Made by a program: the position numbers and the translations under genes. Under the pieces are notes generated by a model. That model worked only from the letters and a program-made list of their open reading frames with translations, was not told where the DNA came from and searched no databases. This document shows, one piece after another, positions 2-8,370 of a stretch of 64,000 nt of DNA (position 1 is the stretch's first letter; every line of letters starts with the position of its first letter). This DNA is from Pseudomonas tructae (GTDB taxonomy: Bacteria; Pseudomonadota; Gammaproteobacteria; Pseudomonadales; Pseudomonadaceae), in NCBI RefSeq assembly GCF_004214895.1, contig NZ_CP035952.1, forward strand, positions 4,102,501 through 4,166,500, read 5' to 3'.

Positions 2-520
2 GACTGCCCTCATTTCAAACCAGAGCAACTGGAGCACGTACGAAAATCCATAGCCGAGGTTACCGGAATAAACATAAAGGACAATGAGATTTATGTAGTA
101 GGTTCGGCAAAGTTGGGTTTTGGACTGCATCAAAAGACAAAAAGAGATGGGGAAATTCTTCCGGCATTCCGGCCTTTCAATGCCGACTCGGATATTGATA
201 TTGCATTCGCATCGGCGGAACTATTCGATATGGTATGGCAAGAAGTATCTACCTTTGCATTCTCTCAGACTAGATTTCCAGCACGAATAAATAAGCTTGG
301 TGATTATCTGGTCTACGGCTGGCTCAGACCCGACCACTTCCCTCGAGACACTCGACTTCTAAATTACGACCGCTGGAACGACAAAGTTCGCTCCCTTGGC
401 CGTGACCAATTACTAGGTCGACGAAAAATCAGCGGCGCGCTTTACCGCAACGTAGAGTTCGTTACCAAGTACCAAGCGCGCGGAATAAATACTTGTAAAA
501 AGCTTCTGGAGCTCTCATGA
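2..520 (+). CDS. nucleotidyltransferase-fold protein, 5' partial
   Basis: The reading frame is open from the first base, so the start lies outside the window; 172 residues and the stop are visible. The visible part carries a polymerase-beta-type nucleotidyltransferase signature: GSAKLGFGL, then about 27 residues later DSDIDIAF, matching the G-S ... D-x-D pattern whose acidic residues bind metal in this superfamily. The family transfers nucleotides to proteins, RNA or other nucleotides; the substrate cannot be read here. The stop overlaps the start of the DUF262 gene by four bases (ATGA), so the two are almost certainly cotranscribed and translationally coupled. The DNA is AT-rich compared with the core genome. 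It could be a CD-NTase, an MNT-type antitoxin or an RNA-modifying enzyme; the missing N-terminus prevents a choice. Confidence 0.72.
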   Translation, partial: DCPHFKPEQLEHVRKSIAEVTGINIKDNEIYVVGSAKLGFGLHQKTKRDGEILPAFRPFNADSDIDIAFASAELFDMVWQEVSTFAFSQTRFPARINKLGDYLVYGWLRPDHFPRDTRLLNYDRWNDKVRSLGRDQLLGRRKISGALYRNVEFVTKYQARGINTCKKLLELS

Positions 521-1554
521 AAACCTCATCGACCAACAAGAAAATTCGCGAACTTATCGCATCGGTCAAGGCTGAAAAAATAATTCCTCGCCCAGAATTC
601 CAACGCCGCCTTGTATGGTCTAGAGATGACAAAAATCACTTTATTGACAGTATTATAAACGGTTTCCCTTTTCCTGAGATTTATGTTGCCGATGGAGAGG
701 TAGACCTTGATAGCGGAGACGGATCTCAACTACTAGTAGATGGCTTGCAGCGCATTAGCACTTTGGTTCAGTACTTTGACGGCGACCCCACCCTGCGTCT
801 GACGACTGTTCCTAGCTATGCCGATCTAAGCGACGAGCAAAAACGCGCCTTTCTACAGTACGACGTTGCAGTTCGAGATCTAGGCACCATTAGCAAAGCA
901 CAAATTATTGAAGCATTTAAACGATTAAACGCAACGAAATACTCCCTGCTTGACATAGAAGTCAACAACGCAATATACAGCGGAAAGATCAAGAAATTCG
1001 CCGAGGATCTTTCCCTTGGTTCATTTTTCACAAACCACAGCATATTCAATGCGCTAGACTTTAAGCGTATGGGAGACCTTAGGTTCACCCTATCCATAGT
1101 AGGGACAATGATTCAAGGCTACTTCAATAGGGATGACGCCTTTGAAGATCTCTTGAGTCGCTATAATGATGATTTCCTGATTGAGAATGATATCAAGGTC
1201 CGATTTGAAAGAGCCACCAACTTCATAGAAGAGTGCGCATTCCCCGATAGAAGTCGCGCATGGAAAAAAGCGGACCTATTCACTTTAATTATTGAAATCG
1301 ATCAGATACTCACTGTCATTCAGGCCCCTATCAACCCTTCTGAAGCGGTTGAGCGACTTTATCAATTTTACAACCAAGTGGAGTCTGCCGGAATAAATGA
1401 GCCGACGATTCATTCCGTTTATTACAAAGCTGCACTCCAAGCTTCCAACGACCGCATAAACCGCCTCCGCCGGGGCATAATCATTTCCGGCATTCTCCTA
1501 GGCTACATTGATCATGTAATCATGGACCTATTGCAACAGGATGGCCTAGCTTAA
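517..1554 (+). CDS. DUF262 (GmrSD N-terminal-like) protein
   Basis: A 345-residue protein with the DUF262 hallmarks in its first 90 residues: RPEFQRRLVW (about 25-34), the FPFP segment, and LLVDGLQRIS containing the D-G-x-Q-R motif (about 74-77). DUF262 has a ParB/Srx-like fold and is proposed to bind and hydrolyse NTPs; it forms the N-terminal half of the type IV restriction enzyme GmrSD and occurs in several defence systems. No DUF1524 HNH nuclease half is visible: the protein ends with a helical region, so any nuclease would have to be a partner. It starts inside the stop of the preceding nucleotidyltransferase gene, suggesting a two-gene unit. Function is inferred as phage defence from family and context; the exact role is unknown. 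Confidence 0.75.
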   Translation: MKTSSTNKKIRELIASVKAEKIIPRPEFQRRLVWSRDDKNHFIDSIINGFPFPEIYVADGEVDLDSGDGSQLLVDGLQRISTLVQYFDGDPTLRLTTVPSYADLSDEQKRAFLQYDVAVRDLGTISKAQIIEAFKRLNATKYSLLDIEVNNAIYSGKIKKFAEDLSLGSFFTNHSIFNALDFKRMGDLRFTLSIVGTMIQGYFNRDDAFEDLLSRYNDDFLIENDIKVRFERATNFIEECAFPDRSRAWKKADLFTLIIEIDQILTVIQAPINPSEAVERLYQFYNQVESAGINEPTIHSVYYKAALQASNDRINRLRRGIIISGILLGYIDHVIMDLLQQDGLA

Positions 1555-2039: not shown

Positions 2040-3992
2040 ATGAAGCTGAGCTTTTACAGACCATACAAGTCAATTCAGATATTTGAGGATGTTGAGCTTC
2101 CTGACTTTACTGTAATCACAGGTGCTAACGGCTCTGGCAAAAGCCATCTTCTAAAAGCAATCCAGGAAGAACATATTAAAATTGATGGCTTTGACCACCT
2201 TCCGCAAGGGGCCAATATAATCTGGCATGATGCAACCACTTTAGCCCCCATTGACAATCCTTGCCCACCATCATCGCAAATAGTCCAAGAGCGAGAGCAG
2301 CACTGGAATTCGCTATCCATGCTGCTATATGGACCAACCGCGAACCTAAAGATGATAACTTATCGCTGGCCGAAATTATCCAAGCTTGAAATCGAAAAAC
2401 TATATAAACTCGAAGCACTTCAGCTGCTCGATTACGGAGTTGCCACCGATGAAGCCGAGAAACTGCACGAGCAAATCCAGAATACATTAAAAAACGAACA
2501 ACTACGCATCGTCAACAGCTTCACCCAGCTTAACCATCCAGCAAACTCCATCCTCATTCAACATATCTTATCGAAATTCGACAAACCAATCTTCACCATC
2601 GACAGAAAAACATTTATTGACCTCTACCCAATCGATTGGCAGCCGGTAAACCTGTTCCAGCAATCCTTTTCGAGAGTTTGCTCCGAATATCAGTCCACTC
2701 TAATCACTAATGAATTCAATGCATATCGCCGCGATTTTCGAGGTGCAACAACAAATGCTTTAACGCCCACTGAATTCATAAACAAACATGGCTCTCCACC
2801 CTGGGAAATAATTAATCATATATTTGAAATTGCCGATATTAAATTTAGGATAAGCCCACCTGACGACTCCATAGATTTTGTTTACCAAGCAATGCTTACA
2901 GACACGATCACAAACGCAAAAATCAGCTTTAGCGATCTCTCATCTGGCGAGAAAATCTTAATGTCTTTCGCCTTGTGCCTTTACAACACATCAAAACCCG
3001 AATCCCACATCGCAAATCTGCCGAAAATTCTATTATTCGACGAGATCGATGCACCCCTTCATCCCTCAATGACCAAGTCACTGCTCGATATTATCCAAAA
3101 AGTCTTCATCAACGAGCAAAAAATTAAAGTCATAATGACCACTCATTCCCCTTCGACTGTAGCTCTATGCCCAGAAGAGTCTATTTTCACCATGAAAAAG
3201 GAGGGAACGAAGCGACTCAGAAAAACAAACAAGGACAAAGCCTTATCATTATTGATGTCAGGTGTACCAAGTCTAAGTTTGAGCTACGAAAACAGACGTC
3301 AAGTTTTCGTGGAAAGCCATCTGGACGTAAAATACTATGACCAGATACTTCGCAAACTCAAACCAATGATACACCCAGCCATATCATTGAGTTTCATAGC
3401 ATCCGGCAAAACAAAAAAAGGTGGATGTGAGCTTGTAAAGGACATTGTGTCCCAGCTATCTAAAAACGGCAATCCAACTATCAGAGGCCTAATTGACTGG
3501 GATAGAAAAAACCAATCAACCGACAACATTGTGGTCCTTGGTTCTAACAAGCGTTACGCTATAGAAAATTATCTGCTGGATCCATTGTTGATAGCCATAT
3601 TGCTATTTCAGGACAAAGCCATTGACCGTCAAGACATAGGTTTAGAAGAGCATGAAGGTTCTGCCGAAATCTTAGCAATGCCTCCAGAGCGTCTACAGCG
3701 TATCGCAGACCACATTATAAATATAATCAATCCAGCTACACTCAACACAGACAGAATCAAATGCGAATACATTAGCAATCAATTTATATTCGTACCCAGG
3801 GTGATGTTAGAAATGCAAGGGCATGACCTTGAAGACTTACTTCCAGAAAAAATCCCCGCTTTACGAGGATACAAAAACAACAAAGGAATAAAAGAAACAG
3901 TACTTAAACGAGTCATAGACGAACACCCATCTTTCATACCAAAATGTTTTCTGCACGCCTTTTTATCATTGCAGAAGCCTATTACTGGTTAA
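2040..3992 (+). CDS. AAA ATPase-TOPRIM/DUF4435 fusion (merged-PARIS-like or OLD-like)
   Basis: A 650-residue protein. The N-terminal half is an ABC-type AAA ATPase: Walker A GANGSGKS (about 28-35), signature FSDLSSGEK (about 297-305), Walker B ILLFDEIDAPLHP (about 330-342) and the H-loop TTHSPSTV (about 367-374). The C-terminal half looks like a TOPRIM/DUF4435 nuclease: VFVESHLDVKYY (about 422-433), then GLIDWDRKN with a D-x-D pair (about 483-491) and AIENYLLDP. ATPase plus DUF4435 is the AriA/AriB pair of the PARIS system, which senses phage anti-defence proteins, and single-polypeptide versions are known; the same architecture also fits OLD nucleases. The start has GGACC about nine bases upstream. 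It stands alone with its own palindrome-bearing leader. ATPase is certain, nuclease likely, PARIS assignment tentative. Confidence 0.72.
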   Translation: MKLSFYRPYKSIQIFEDVELPDFTVITGANGSGKSHLLKAIQEEHIKIDGFDHLPQGANIIWHDATTLAPIDNPCPPSSQIVQEREQHWNSLSMLLYGPTANLKMITYRWPKLSKLEIEKLYKLEALQLLDYGVATDEAEKLHEQIQNTLKNEQLRIVNSFTQLNHPANSILIQHILSKFDKPIFTIDRKTFIDLYPIDWQPVNLFQQSFSRVCSEYQSTLITNEFNAYRRDFRGATTNALTPTEFINKHGSPPWEIINHIFEIADIKFRISPPDDSIDFVYQAMLTDTITNAKISFSDLSSGEKILMSFALCLYNTSKPESHIANLPKILLFDEIDAPLHPSMTKSLLDIIQKVFINEQKIKVIMTTHSPSTVALCPEESIFTMKKEGTKRLRKTNKDKALSLLMSGVPSLSLSYENRRQVFVESHLDVKYYDQILRKLKPMIHPAISLSFIASGKTKKGGCELVKDIVSQLSKNGNPTIRGLIDWDRKNQSTDNIVVLGSNKRYAIENYLLDPLLIAILLFQDKAIDRQDIGLEEHEGSAEILAMPPERLQRIADHIINIINPATLNTDRIKCEYISNQFIFVPRVMLEMQGHDLEDLLPEKIPALRGYKNNKGIKETVLKRVIDEHPSFIPKCFLHAFLSLQKPITG

Positions 3993-4451: not shown

Positions 4452-6128
4452 TCAACTATTCCAAAGCATTATCCGCTCAACAATCTCACTCATTTCAACT
4501 TCTAACTCAGGTCGAAATGAAAGATTCTCCCTAGAAAAAACCTCACTATACTTCACAGCTTTGTGATGCTTACCCGAATACTCAGCCGCCGAAGACAAAT
4601 TATTATCTCTCAGATAATCCTGTATATAGTCATACTCCCCGATCTGCGACAAACCGATTACACCATGTACCGACTCGAATGACTCCTTTGGAATATAGTT
4701 TTCAATCTCACGACACTTACTAACCCAGACGTGCCCTCGCCCCTCATTAATTTCGCCAAGCAGCTCTGTTACCCGGTTCTTGAGCGCACCCCTTTTATTC
4801 CTTCTATCACTATCACATACAAAAATAAAATTCCTATTAATCCTCATTGCACTTACAGCTTCTTGAAGCTCAGCATCTGGTGTAGCAGCGCTTACATTAG
4901 CAAGCACGCTACCACCATAATATATAAACTGATAGTGATGCCCCTCTTTATAGGCGCCACCACCCCACAACTCAATAAATTTATTTAAATAGACTCGATC
5001 GGAAGGCCCCTCAACCCACAAAATTCCATTGGCCTGTAGAATATCACTCGCCTTAGCCCCCAAATCGTCCAACACAGAGTAGCCACGAACTAGATCGTCT
5101 AAGATAACTCCAACCGACTCTCTACCTTGTTTTCTCACATGAAGAATTTGAGCATCCTCCTCCCCATGGAACAGGTCAATCGCAACTTGAGAATGTGTGG
5201 TCAAAAAAATGTGGCACTGACTAGACTGCGCAAAAGCCAGCAAAAATGAGAATAAATTCCTTTGAAGGGATGGGTGCAGGTTATTTTCCAGCTCTTCAAA
5301 TGAGAACACATAAAAATCAATACTTTTCTTTTCAAAATCCGGCCGAACCAACAAGTTAAGCAAAGTCAGAATAACTGTCTTTAACCCACTACCTGAAGCG
5401 GAAAGCGGAACCAACCCCTTCCCCTCCTCCCCAAGATAAATTTCCCACATACCATCTGAATGGCGCTGCACTACTATCTCAGTGAAAACGGTATCAGGGC
5501 TGAAAATATCGTTTAAAGCAGTTAACAATCTTATTTGAATCAAATCCCTATCTAGAGTTGAACTAGTAATATACATTTGAACAATGTTTGTCCCTCCAAC
5601 ACCATTCCCTGCCAAAGACAGCTCACTAGAATACTGCTCTCTAACGAGATCTCTATCAGCGTCAAGTTTTATGTGCCTAATTTTTGCATTTTTGGCTTTC
5701 TGTATAGCATTAGCAAGTCGCGTTTTCTCTCCGGGCACTAACTCCCTCAGAAAGCCTTCCGCTCTCAAAACATCTAGCGTCGTTCCTTGCTCCCGCCAAA
5801 AAACAAGTTTATCAATGAAATTACACCCATGATCGTTCCAATGGTGCCCTGGGAGCTCCCCTCCCCGCGCCATGGTTGAAAACTCTCCCCGTACTTGCTC
5901 CTCACTCAGACGCTCACAATACTCAGCACTTTCACCGATAGGGGAACTCCCCCCACGCCCACGAAAAAGGTGCTCAACAGCTTCAACAAGACTGGATTTC
6001 CCTATATTATTTTTACCAACTATCACATTAACTGGCTTTATGCACTCAAACCCCGCCCCTAACTCTTTGAACCCCTTGTAATTCCTAACCCAAAAACCAG
6101 TATCAATAGTCACAAATGTCAACCCCAT
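4452..6128 (-). CDS. OLD-family ATPase with TOPRIM nuclease domain
   Basis: A 558-residue protein with both OLD halves. The ATPase has Walker A GKNNIGKSS (about 38-46), a signature-like SASGSGLKT (about 245-253), the Walker B region FEELENNLHP, and the H-loop LTTHSQVAID. The TOPRIM half starts at ILWVEGPSDRVYL (about 367), followed by the metal-binding D-x-D in FVCDSDRRN and the REIENYIP motif typical of this branch. OLD proteins are ATP-regulated DNases; relatives act alone or with a helicase (Gabija) or as retron and phage-exclusion effectors. No helicase partner is adjacent, so it resembles a class 1 stand-alone OLD. It faces the AAA-TOPRIM gene tail to tail and lies 16 bases downstream of the integrase, in the same direction. 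AT-rich composition marks it as island DNA. Confidence 0.82.
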   Translation of the reverse strand: MGLTFVTIDTGFWVRNYKGFKELGAGFECIKPVNVIVGKNNIGKSSLVEAVEHLFRGRGGSSPIGESAEYCERLSEEQVRGEFSTMARGGELPGHHWNDHGCNFIDKLVFWREQGTTLDVLRAEGFLRELVPGEKTRLANAIQKAKNAKIRHIKLDADRDLVREQYSSELSLAGNGVGGTNIVQMYITSSTLDRDLIQIRLLTALNDIFSPDTVFTEIVVQRHSDGMWEIYLGEEGKGLVPLSASGSGLKTVILTLLNLLVRPDFEKKSIDFYVFSFEELENNLHPSLQRNLFSFLLAFAQSSQCHIFLTTHSQVAIDLFHGEEDAQILHVRKQGRESVGVILDDLVRGYSVLDDLGAKASDILQANGILWVEGPSDRVYLNKFIELWGGGAYKEGHHYQFIYYGGSVLANVSAATPDAELQEAVSAMRINRNFIFVCDSDRRNKRGALKNRVTELLGEINEGRGHVWVSKCREIENYIPKESFESVHGVIGLSQIGEYDYIQDYLRDNNLSSAAEYSGKHHKAVKYSEVFSRENLSFRPELEVEMSEIVERIMLWNS

Positions 6129-6144
6129 CCTAGGAACATATCTT

Positions 6145-7257
6145 TCATCTGGATAACTTTACAGATGCATCAACTATGGACCGCAGCCACTCCCAGCCTG
6201 AATATATATCACCGCGCCCTCGAAGATGCGTGTATCGTCGCATTGAATTCCAATCCCTATGTCCTGAAACATTTGCCACACGCGGAATATCCCAATCCAT
6301 TTCAAACAAACGACTAACCCCTTCGTGTCGCAGGTCATGAAAATGTAGATCATCAATTTCTAGGAATTTACAAGCCCTGGTCCAAGCAGCCGAATTCGAA
6401 TCGCTATTGTAGGGAAATATCTCATCGCACTCCCGAGGCATGCTGTGAACAATCGCCCAGGCCTCATCCGGCAAATGGCACCAGACATCGTTACCGATCT
6501 TCTGCCCCGGGTTCTTCATGTCCCGAACCTTCACAGCCTGCCGCTCTTCATCCAGATCAGCCCAACGGATTCGCGTGATTTCCTCCTGGCGGCGCGTCGA
6601 GAACAGGGCGAAGGCAAGAACCTTCGGCATATTGATGGACGATGGTCGACGCTTTTGCATCTCGAAGAAGTGCTCAAGCAACTTGTCCAACTCATCCATC
6701 GCCGGCCGACGATCGCGCTCACGGCTTTTCATGTTGTACCCGAGCTTCTTCAACACGGTACGAGCATCACCCATGGCATGGGGTTCCACCTCGTACCCCC
6801 AAGCAGGCCGAGCCACTGATAACACTGACCCGAGGTGTGCGAGATCATTACCAGCCGTCTGCGGCTGCACAGCACCACCCTCGGGACTCATGCGCCACAA
6901 AGCGTAGTCGACCAGGATCTGATTGTTGATAGCAGAGTCCACTACCTCACCGAAGGGGCTCGCAGCAATGGCGAGCAACGTAGCCTTCTTGGTTTTACCT
7001 AGCGGCCGAACCTTGGCGCCTTCAACCAGGTACCGGTCAATCATCTCTCGAACGGTGTACCCCTTTCGGTTTGCCCGCTCGATCGCACCAGGCTCAGCTA
7101 GCTCTGTCTCTCGTCGCTTTGCCCAAGCTTGGGCAGCCTGCTTACGCGCGAATGTCTGGCTCTCTTGGTAAACTAGTTCCTTGTCGCGATTGATACGGAT
7201 CTGGACGGTGTAGCTGGATGTGCCATCGGCCCTTTTGCGTGCTCTGATCGTTGCCAT
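6145..7257 (-). CDS. tyrosine recombinase, dusA-type island integrase
   Basis: A 370-residue site-specific recombinase that integrates and excises the island. The catalytic set is visible: Arg in FSTRRQEEI (about 221), H-x-x-R in HDLRHEG (about 307-310), GHRDWNS (about 330), and the nucleophile Tyr in RRYTHL (about 343). The N-terminal part is a usual arm-binding and core-binding region. The ATG encoding MATIRARKRADG was chosen because the upstream in-frame codons would run through the repeat-rich attachment region. The gene sits beside the 5' end of dusA and points into the island, the arrangement known for dusA-associated integrases. It may be cotranscribed with the OLD gene downstream. Confidence 0.92.
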   Translation of the reverse strand: MATIRARKRADGTSSYTVQIRINRDKELVYQESQTFARKQAAQAWAKRRETELAEPGAIERANRKGYTVREMIDRYLVEGAKVRPLGKTKKATLLAIAASPFGEVVDSAINNQILVDYALWRMSPEGGAVQPQTAGNDLAHLGSVLSVARPAWGYEVEPHAMGDARTVLKKLGYNMKSRERDRRPAMDELDKLLEHFFEMQKRRPSSINMPKVLAFALFSTRRQEEITRIRWADLDEERQAVKVRDMKNPGQKIGNDVWCHLPDEAWAIVHSMPRECDEIFPYNSDSNSAAWTRACKFLEIDDLHFHDLRHEGVSRLFEMDWDIPRVANVSGHRDWNSMRRYTHLRGRGDIYSGWEWLRSIVDASVKLSR

Positions 7258-7359
7258 GGGAAATTGGTACACGTCGGTTTTGGATTGGTACATTGCACCA
7301 ACCACTTGGCAAAAACGCCCAAAAACCCCCGAAAATTGGTACAAAACACGTTGGACGAA
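7258..7359. other. island-chromosome junction at the 5' end of dusA (attachment region)
   Basis: Sequence composition changes here from the AT-rich island to GC-rich core. The region lies between the integrase start and the chosen dusA ATG. Insertion at this point replaces the native dusA leader, so dusA now depends on a promoter supplied by the island end. The dusA frame stays open upstream through 7264 (TTG-type starts), so a few extra N-terminal residues are possible. The exact core crossover sequence cannot be fixed because the other island end is not in the window. Confidence 0.65.
7263..7342. repeat. three ATTGGTAC direct repeats at the att region
   Basis: The octamer ATTGGTAC occurs at 7263-7270, 7284-7291 and 7335-7342. 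The first two are exactly two helical turns apart (21 bp). Such short repeats beside an integrase gene are typical of arm-type integrase binding sites, or of integrase autoregulation. The copy nearest dusA may belong to the core site. Confidence 0.55.
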
Positions 7360-8370
7360 ATGCCCTTAGAATCCGCCTCAACCCCAGTAAACCCGCGCCC
7401 TGAGCCGTCCCGCCGCTTCAGCGTTGCACCGATGATGGACTGGACTGACCGCCACTGCCGGTTCTTCCTGCGCCTGCTCTCCAGCAACGCCCTGCTCTAC
7501 ACCGAAATGGTCACCACCGGCGCCTTGCTGCACGGTGACGCCGAGCGCTTCCTGCGTCATAGCGAAGCCGAGCATCCATTGGCGTTACAGTTGGGCGGCA
7601 GTGTCCCGGCCGACTTGGCCGCCTGTGCCAAGCTGGCCCAGGCCGCCGGGTATGACGAGGTCAATCTCAACGTCGGCTGCCCGAGCGATCGGGTGCAGAA
7701 CAATATGATCGGTGCCTGCCTGATGGGCCATCCGGCGCTGGTCGGTGATTGCGTGAAGGCGATGCAGGATGCGGTGCAGATCCCGGTAACGGTCAAGCAC
7801 CGCATCGGTATCAATGGCCGTGACAGCTATGCCGAACTGTGCGATTTCGTCGGCCAGGTGCGTGACGCCGGCTGCCGCAGTTTTACCGTGCATGCGCGGA
7901 TCGCGATTCTTGAAGGGCTGTCACCGAAGGAGAACCGCGAGATTCCGCCGCTACGCTATGACGTCGCCGCGCAATTGAAGGCGGATTTCCCAGACCTGGA
8001 GCTGGTGCTCAACGGCGGTATCAAGACCCTGGCCGAATGCCAGGAACACCTGAAGACGTTCGACGGGGTGATGCTTGGTCGCGAGGCGTACCACAACCCG
8101 TATGTACTGGCGGAAGTTGACCAGCAACTGTTCGGCAGCACCGCACCGGTGATCAGCCGTAGCGAAGCACTGGCCAAATTGCGCCCATACATCGCCGCGC
8201 ACCTGGCCTGCGGCGGCGTCATGCACCATATCACCCGGCACATTCTGGGCCTGGGCCAGGGCTTCCCGGGGGCACGCAAGTTCCGCCAGTTGCTGTCGGT
8301 GGACATTCACAAGAGCAACGACCCGCTGGCCCTGCTCGACCAGGCCGGCGAGCTGCTGCAAGGGCGCTAG
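7360..8370 (+). CDS. dusA: tRNA-dihydrouridine(20/20a) synthase DusA
   Basis: Reduces uridine to dihydrouridine in the D-loop of tRNA, using FMN and NADPH in the cytoplasm. The 336-residue protein has the FMN-binding start RRFSVAPMMDWTDRHC (about 18-33), the catalytic Cys in NVGCPSDR (Cys107) and the VKHRIGI and LNGGIKT segments of the TIM barrel. The ATG that begins MPLESAS gives the usual family length; longer starts would enter the attachment region. The island is inserted immediately upstream, so its native promoter is likely displaced while the coding region remains intact. Confidence 0.96.
   Translation: MPLESASTPVNPRPEPSRRFSVAPMMDWTDRHCRFFLRLLSSNALLYTEMVTTGALLHGDAERFLRHSEAEHPLALQLGGSVPADLAACAKLAQAAGYDEVNLNVGCPSDRVQNNMIGACLMGHPALVGDCVKAMQDAVQIPVTVKHRIGINGRDSYAELCDFVGQVRDAGCRSFTVHARIAILEGLSPKENREIPPLRYDVAAQLKADFPDLELVLNGGIKTLAECQEHLKTFDGVMLGREAYHNPYVLAEVDQQLFGSTAPVISRSEALAKLRPYIAAHLACGGVMHHITRHILGLGQGFPGARKFRQLLSVDIHKSNDPLALLDQAGELLQGR

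Follow-up and report, generated by a model that had tools for sequence, protein, structure and literature searches.

The 64,000-nucleotide stretch of Pseudomonas tructae DNA analysed here (contig NZ_CP035952.1, positions 4,102,501 to 4,166,500 of the forward strand; hereafter the window) opens with two overlapping plus-strand genes, one encoding a small predicted nucleotidyltransferase (NTase) and the other a DUF262 protein. Together they are a real, conserved two-gene unit, undescribed in the literature searched, whose mechanism we infer below. The NTase gene enters the window with an open 5′ end (2..520); in the genome sequence it starts 77 bases ahead of the window and in full (L002:11924-12520) encodes 198 amino acids (aa). 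The DUF262 gene (517..1554) encodes 345 aa, with a ParB/Srx-like N-terminal domain (about residues 1-141) and a helical C-terminal domain, without HNH, and the reading of the open reading frames (ORFs) places an ATGA shared by both genes at 517..520. The NTase carries G60-S61 within VGSAK (101..106), the predicted metal-binding carboxylates D90-x-D92 within SDIDIAF (191..199) and a candidate third carboxylate, D137 of an RPD motif (332..334). The NTPase-type motif of the DUF262 protein, DGLQR, lies at 739..753. An earlier note on this DNA had pointed to the NTase motif (GSAK…DSDID), to DGLQR and to the overlap, all of which are borne out by the ORFs. Upstream of the NTase the nearest ORF of at least 100 aa is found at 1.4 kb, on the opposite strand, and is acyltransferase-like by eye. 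No further gene of the unit was found among upstream ORFs of that size in the genome sequence beyond the window; with the full NTase recovered, the larger known system that the note had allowed for does not appear there. Downstream, an AAA protein is encoded about 0.5 kb from the DUF262 gene.

A profile built from the NTase alone (A1) was applied to the species genomes and yielded 54 loci. In 51 of them the next gene downstream on the same strand encodes a DUF262 protein; chance neighbourhood is therefore rejected, and the conservation on which the earlier note had made its case depend is widespread. For 49 of these 51 loci the distance from the NTase stop to the DUF262 gene falls between −37 and +10 bp, the exceptions being L012 and L049, where the DUF262 gene and the NTase gene, respectively, are frame-split. 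These splits, the second of which occurs in Pseudomonas neustonica (L049/L080), may be decay or assembly error. Three A1 loci show no DUF262. In L045 the contig runs out 97 bp beyond the NTase ORF; L055 and L056 are weak relatives. Species-genome loci plus those from the genus, class, plasmid and viral sets amount to 62 distinct pairs, leaving out places fetched a second time (L001, L057-L061, L065-L071, L078, L080) and NTase loci without DUF262 (L045, L055, L056, L075-L077), and counting the higher-scoring piece of each frame-split gene unchanged. The GS and DxD motifs are intact in all 62 NTases (the glycine always followed by S or T, the two aspartates invariant) and the RPD aspartate is kept in 50. 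DGxQR is intact in all 62 DUF262 proteins, its third position being Q in 48 and L in 14, the L forms making up the window's own clade. Similarity matrices computed for the NTases and for the DUF262 proteins correlate (r 0.85; 0 of 2000 permutations as high), as they also would if two linked genes had simply descended together.

On the DUF262 tree the pair loci bear labels from eleven phyla, although single phylum labels may be wrong because many loci are metagenome bins. Within any one group the pair is rare. NTase matches occur in 5 of 398 family genomes with A1, all five with DUF262, and with profile A4 in 2 of 369 class genomes and 6 of 398 genus genomes, three of these six being without DUF262 (the window genome is included in each count). 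A first contig scan with the single NTase protein gave zero relatives, and tblastn of the NTase against plasmids and phages gave zero matches. Among the best 120 of 1458 DUF262 relatives (330-360 aa) there is no NTase-DUF262 fusion, no search having been aimed at fusions.

The window DUF262 protein matches PF03235 in Pfam (E 4.2e-17, 63.4 bits, cut-off 33.2) and, in the 2023 release of PADLOC, is best matched by NsnA (E 3.6e-29, residues 5-242), with further matches to PD-T4-2_A (E 1.2e-18) and REase_II (E 1.4e-9). Its predicted model (predicted local distance difference test, pLDDT, 87.7) has BrxU, PadC, SspE and ParB as top fold matches, led by BrxU and SspE. The remark of the earlier note that this DUF262 lacks the HNH half of GmrSD proves correct: HNH and DUF1524 have zero Pfam matches in either protein of the pair, Pfam detects no nuclease domain in the DUF262 protein, and a motif scan found DH[IV][YFHW]P in none of the 62 DUF262 proteins. 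The NTase, a candidate member of the Pol-beta nucleotidyltransferase superfamily, was modelled by AlphaFold2 with a mean pLDDT of 93.0. It has no match at E ≤ 1 in Pfam or PADLOC and only a chance-level one in NCBIfam (0.22). It is unmatched by HEPN in the family scans and by the PADLOC models of the cyclic oligonucleotide-based antiphage signalling system (CBASS). Its match to phrog_32008 is weak (E 5.1e-6), and a PDB sequence search with its profile had a best E of 0.16. Two PADLOC oligonucleotide-cyclase models each match one of 41 NTase family members (E 0.0045 and 0.0054). The NTase has 198 relatives at E ≤ 0.001; in the best 120 of these, lengths are mostly near 198-200 aa and no precomputed Pfam domain is present.

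In the window the pair is accompanied by a tyrosine integrase gene (6145..7344, minus strand; PF00589, 8e-16) and by a repeat resembling an attachment site at the start of dusA (7321..7445, plus strand), the left counterpart of which, a copy of the dusA start, lies outside the window (L002:11543-11667). Since copies of the dusA start flank the pair and an integrase adjoins, the pair is carried by an integrated element about 7.8 kb long, in agreement with the dusA-side island of the earlier note. The repeat was recovered by BLAST (127 columns, 89% identity, E 4e-41) and missed by a direct-repeat finder; the name dusA comes from the protein sequence and from that note. Two AAA genes travel on the element, one (2040-3992) with ATPase-Toprim_I-B as best PADLOC match (2e-28), the other (4452-6128) matching the AriA, PDC-M38A, AbiLi and GajA models (1e-20 to 3e-16); neither clusters by BLAST with the neighbours of the pair elsewhere. 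In two P2-like phage contigs (L082, L084) the pair sits between Phage_GPA and the portal/terminase genes, that is, in the gpA-gpQ hotspot, which PMC9122126 describes as an anti-phage hotspot and in which P2 has its old and tin genes. In a further viral contig (L083) a KAP NTPase gene comes after the pair. Plasmids also carry it, one of 6.2 kb from Cronobacter (L062) and one of 801 kb from Pseudoalteromonas (L064). There is no recurring third gene, the largest neighbour clusters covering 6 of 57 loci, chiefly Poribacteria. In four Poribacteria loci (L025, L027, L028, L053) a same-strand gene of 356-371 aa, which clusters across loci, precedes the pair by 21-57 bp; the one scanned (L027) encodes TPR repeats.

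DNA methyltransferases of two unrelated families are found near the pair in eight of the 62 loci. The 5-methylcytosine (m5C) type is present at L036 and L038 (0 bp), L051 (13 bp), L074 (21 bp) and L050, in whose operon the order is m5C-NaeI-Vsr-NTase-DUF262, and the N6/N4 type (PF01555) at L048 (4 bp) and L047 (0.6 kb). At L042 a PF01555-like methyltransferase, found by phmmer only, lies at 0.6 kb with an HNH gene between. Two loci were kept outside these eight: in L033 a PF01555-like gene lies at a distance of 2.1 kb, and in L023 an incomplete m5C-like piece at 1.3 kb. On the DUF262 tree the methyltransferase label requires at least 6 changes, against a shuffled mean of 7.7 (13 of 500 shuffles as low). 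In 54 two-gene loci, methyltransferases account for 4 of 16 immediate neighbours of at least 150 aa versus 5 of 441 others (Fisher p 1e-4), a comparison that is biased because the methyltransferase queries were chosen from these same matches. By the queries used, the other 54 of the 62 loci, the window's included, have no methyltransferase adjoining the pair, and no cognate one was found among the scanned proteins of the window island. Taken together, the dusA island, the P2-like gpA-gpQ hotspot and the restriction-modification (R-M) operons are strong context for a predicted role in defence. As a prediction, the undescribed two-gene defence unit suggested by the earlier note is thus well supported by context.

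The reciprocal search, with a DUF262 profile (A3), matched 54 of 298 genus genomes. In the 30 A3 loci examined, an NTase gene precedes DUF262 in the three best-scoring ones (above 200 bits) and in none of the 27 others; the NTase therefore accompanies a single DUF262 subfamily. The DUF262 proteins of L088 and L089 (184 and 170 bits), nearest in score to that subfamily, are without NTase, and the downstream partner in L089 has 216 aa and no Pfam match. A co-directional ORF lies within 150 bp downstream in 22 of the 27 NTase-free loci, and the ten such partners scanned gave eight HEPN proteins (seven above the Pfam cut-off, that of L095 below), one AAA_21 and one without match. The eight HEPN-linked DUF262 proteins have 344-484 aa. 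The order in L097 is methyltransferase-DUF262-HEPN, an arrangement that L090, with a partner of 224 aa, may share; the HEPN survey PMC3710099 already includes a HEPN family encoded in operons together with a ParB nuclease and a DNA methylase. On an Asticcacaulis plasmid (L063:4989-7135) a protein kinase gene directly follows the DUF262 gene, and is another partner of this family. The NTase also occurs in a sister lineage without DUF262, in three genomes of the window's genus (L075:6805-8029, L076:7486-8785 and L077:7574-8792, from G816, G293 and G212). In all three, out of 298 genus genomes, its partner is a 182-223 aa ORF resembling peptidoglycan transglycosylases (GT51). That of L077 matches PBP1A at 7e-14, those of L075 and L076 show 43-47% identity to it or to each other, and all three retain, by eye, the EDHR and GGSTI motifs. 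It is possible that the sister NTase and the GT51-like ORF are a separate two-gene unit.

Comparison with named systems places the pair beside several of them. It shares with PD-T4-2 of E. coli a central DUF262 without DUF1524 and the PD-T4-2_A match, but its partner is an NTase encoded upstream rather than HEPN. With Menshen, of which the Nsn models are presumably part, it shares an NsnA-type DUF262; however, its operon has no ATPase or nuclease partner, and the AAA genes of the island stand apart. A Menshen fragment was rejected, as no ATPase/OLD partner recurs across the 57 loci compared. GmrSD, BrxU, SspE, DndI, TgvAB and GrwAB have in common with it the DUF262 domain with DGxQR, whereas the window pair has an NTase in place of the DUF1524 HNH. 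The GmrS half of a split GmrSD was likewise rejected, DUF1524 being unmatched in the pair and in the scanned proteins of the island. HEPN/MNT (minimal nucleotidyltransferase) modules, such as the type VII toxin-antitoxin HepT-MntA, are also two-gene and contain a small MNT-like NTase with GS..DxD; in the window the partner is DUF262, not HEPN, and the NTase has RPD and Y183 motifs of its own. We file the pair as a putative DUF262-centred defence system outside GmrSD, PD-T4-2, Menshen, HEPN/MNT and CBASS. The literature searched, with subscription journals and preprints outside it, holds no description of an NTase-DUF262 pair.

Taking into account these observations, we tentatively propose that the pair is an anti-phage unit in which DUF262 acts as a sensor switched by nucleoside triphosphate (NTP) and the small NTase as the effector released on infection. 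In the model, an encounter with DNA that is foreign or wrongly modified would cause the ParB/Srx-like DUF262 protein to bind and hydrolyse NTP, in the manner of GmrSD-family proteins. This switching would free the NTase, which could then add nucleotides to an essential RNA (tRNA ends, for example) or protein, arresting growth or phage production. This assignment of roles rests on the other standalone DUF262 genes of the genus, most of whose scanned downstream partners encode a HEPN RNase, as in PD-T4-2. The simplest reading would be that DUF262 is the constant sensor and that the partner (HNH, HEPN, OLD/ATPase and now NTase) is a varying effector. Precedents exist: in BrxU, SspE and GmrSD DUF262 binds or hydrolyses NTPs, triggering in SspE the DUF1524 nuclease domain, and DUF262 without DUF1524 is present also in PD-T4-2, Menshen and Dazbog (PMC10952713, PMC8565348). 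On the effector side, there are toxSAS toxins whose action blocks the 3′ ends of tRNA (PMC11559606), and a mycobacterial NTase toxin is named in the title of a reference in PMC8565348. It may also be, and we advance it with similar reserve, that a new effector class is represented here, in which a modification-sensing NTP switch unleashes an NTase instead of a nuclease and so poisons RNA or protein, the NTase lineage having been re-used with GT51.

The roles could also be reversed, the NTase being a regulator or antitoxin that nucleotidylates a toxic DUF262 protein until infection removes the modification or the NTase. This would be the modifier and target of the earlier note, and it remains a serious rival, although on balance an unlikely one. 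The NTase gene comes first and overlaps its partner, matching the antitoxin-first gene order that is usual, and the DUF262 proteins keep two tyrosines, Y115 (62/62) and Y302 (58/62). Three further points speak for such a regulator and weigh against our proposal: (i) the best fold match of the NTase, a weak one, is HI0073, part of a two-protein nucleotidyltransferase; (ii) MntA adenylylates HepT and in MNT logic the NTase is the antitoxin (PMC7641770); and (iii) the sister NTase pairs with GT51 rather than DUF262, as a shared regulator might. However, the DUF262 protein has neither a Pfam nuclease domain nor a DUF1524-type motif, and a separate effector partner stands beside other DUF262 proteins. 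A DUF262 gate with an NTase effector fits best.

A two-subunit restriction enzyme is an improbable reading of the pair; in it DUF262 would recognise DNA lacking or bearing a modification and damage it together with the NTase, a methyltransferase protecting the host where present. The two methyltransferase families near the pair, their biased enrichment and the REase_II match agree with such a role, but most loci have no adjoining methyltransferase and no nuclease motif was found in the pair. Because a NaeI endonuclease is already present at L050 and an HNH gene at L042, the restriction half of R-M is kept, as a general role, as a rival only. Very improbable, finally, is CBASS-like signalling, in which the NTase would make a nucleotide second messenger sensed by DUF262, the signal producer and sensor of the earlier note. 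The GS..DxD motif and the two isolated cyclase-model matches are compatible with it, but the window NTase itself is unmatched in PADLOC and, at 198 aa, shorter than the cGAS/DncV-like nucleotidyltransferases (CD-NTases). Moreover, the fold of its partner is of the NTPase-type ParB/Srx kind, and no NTase adjoins the 27 lower-scoring DUF262 genes examined in the genus.

DUF262 is present in many defence systems. A version made of two genes, in which the predicted enzyme is small and separate, would let sensing be parted from killing and, if the switch-and-effector proposal is true, nucleotidyl transfer would join the effectors under DUF262 control.
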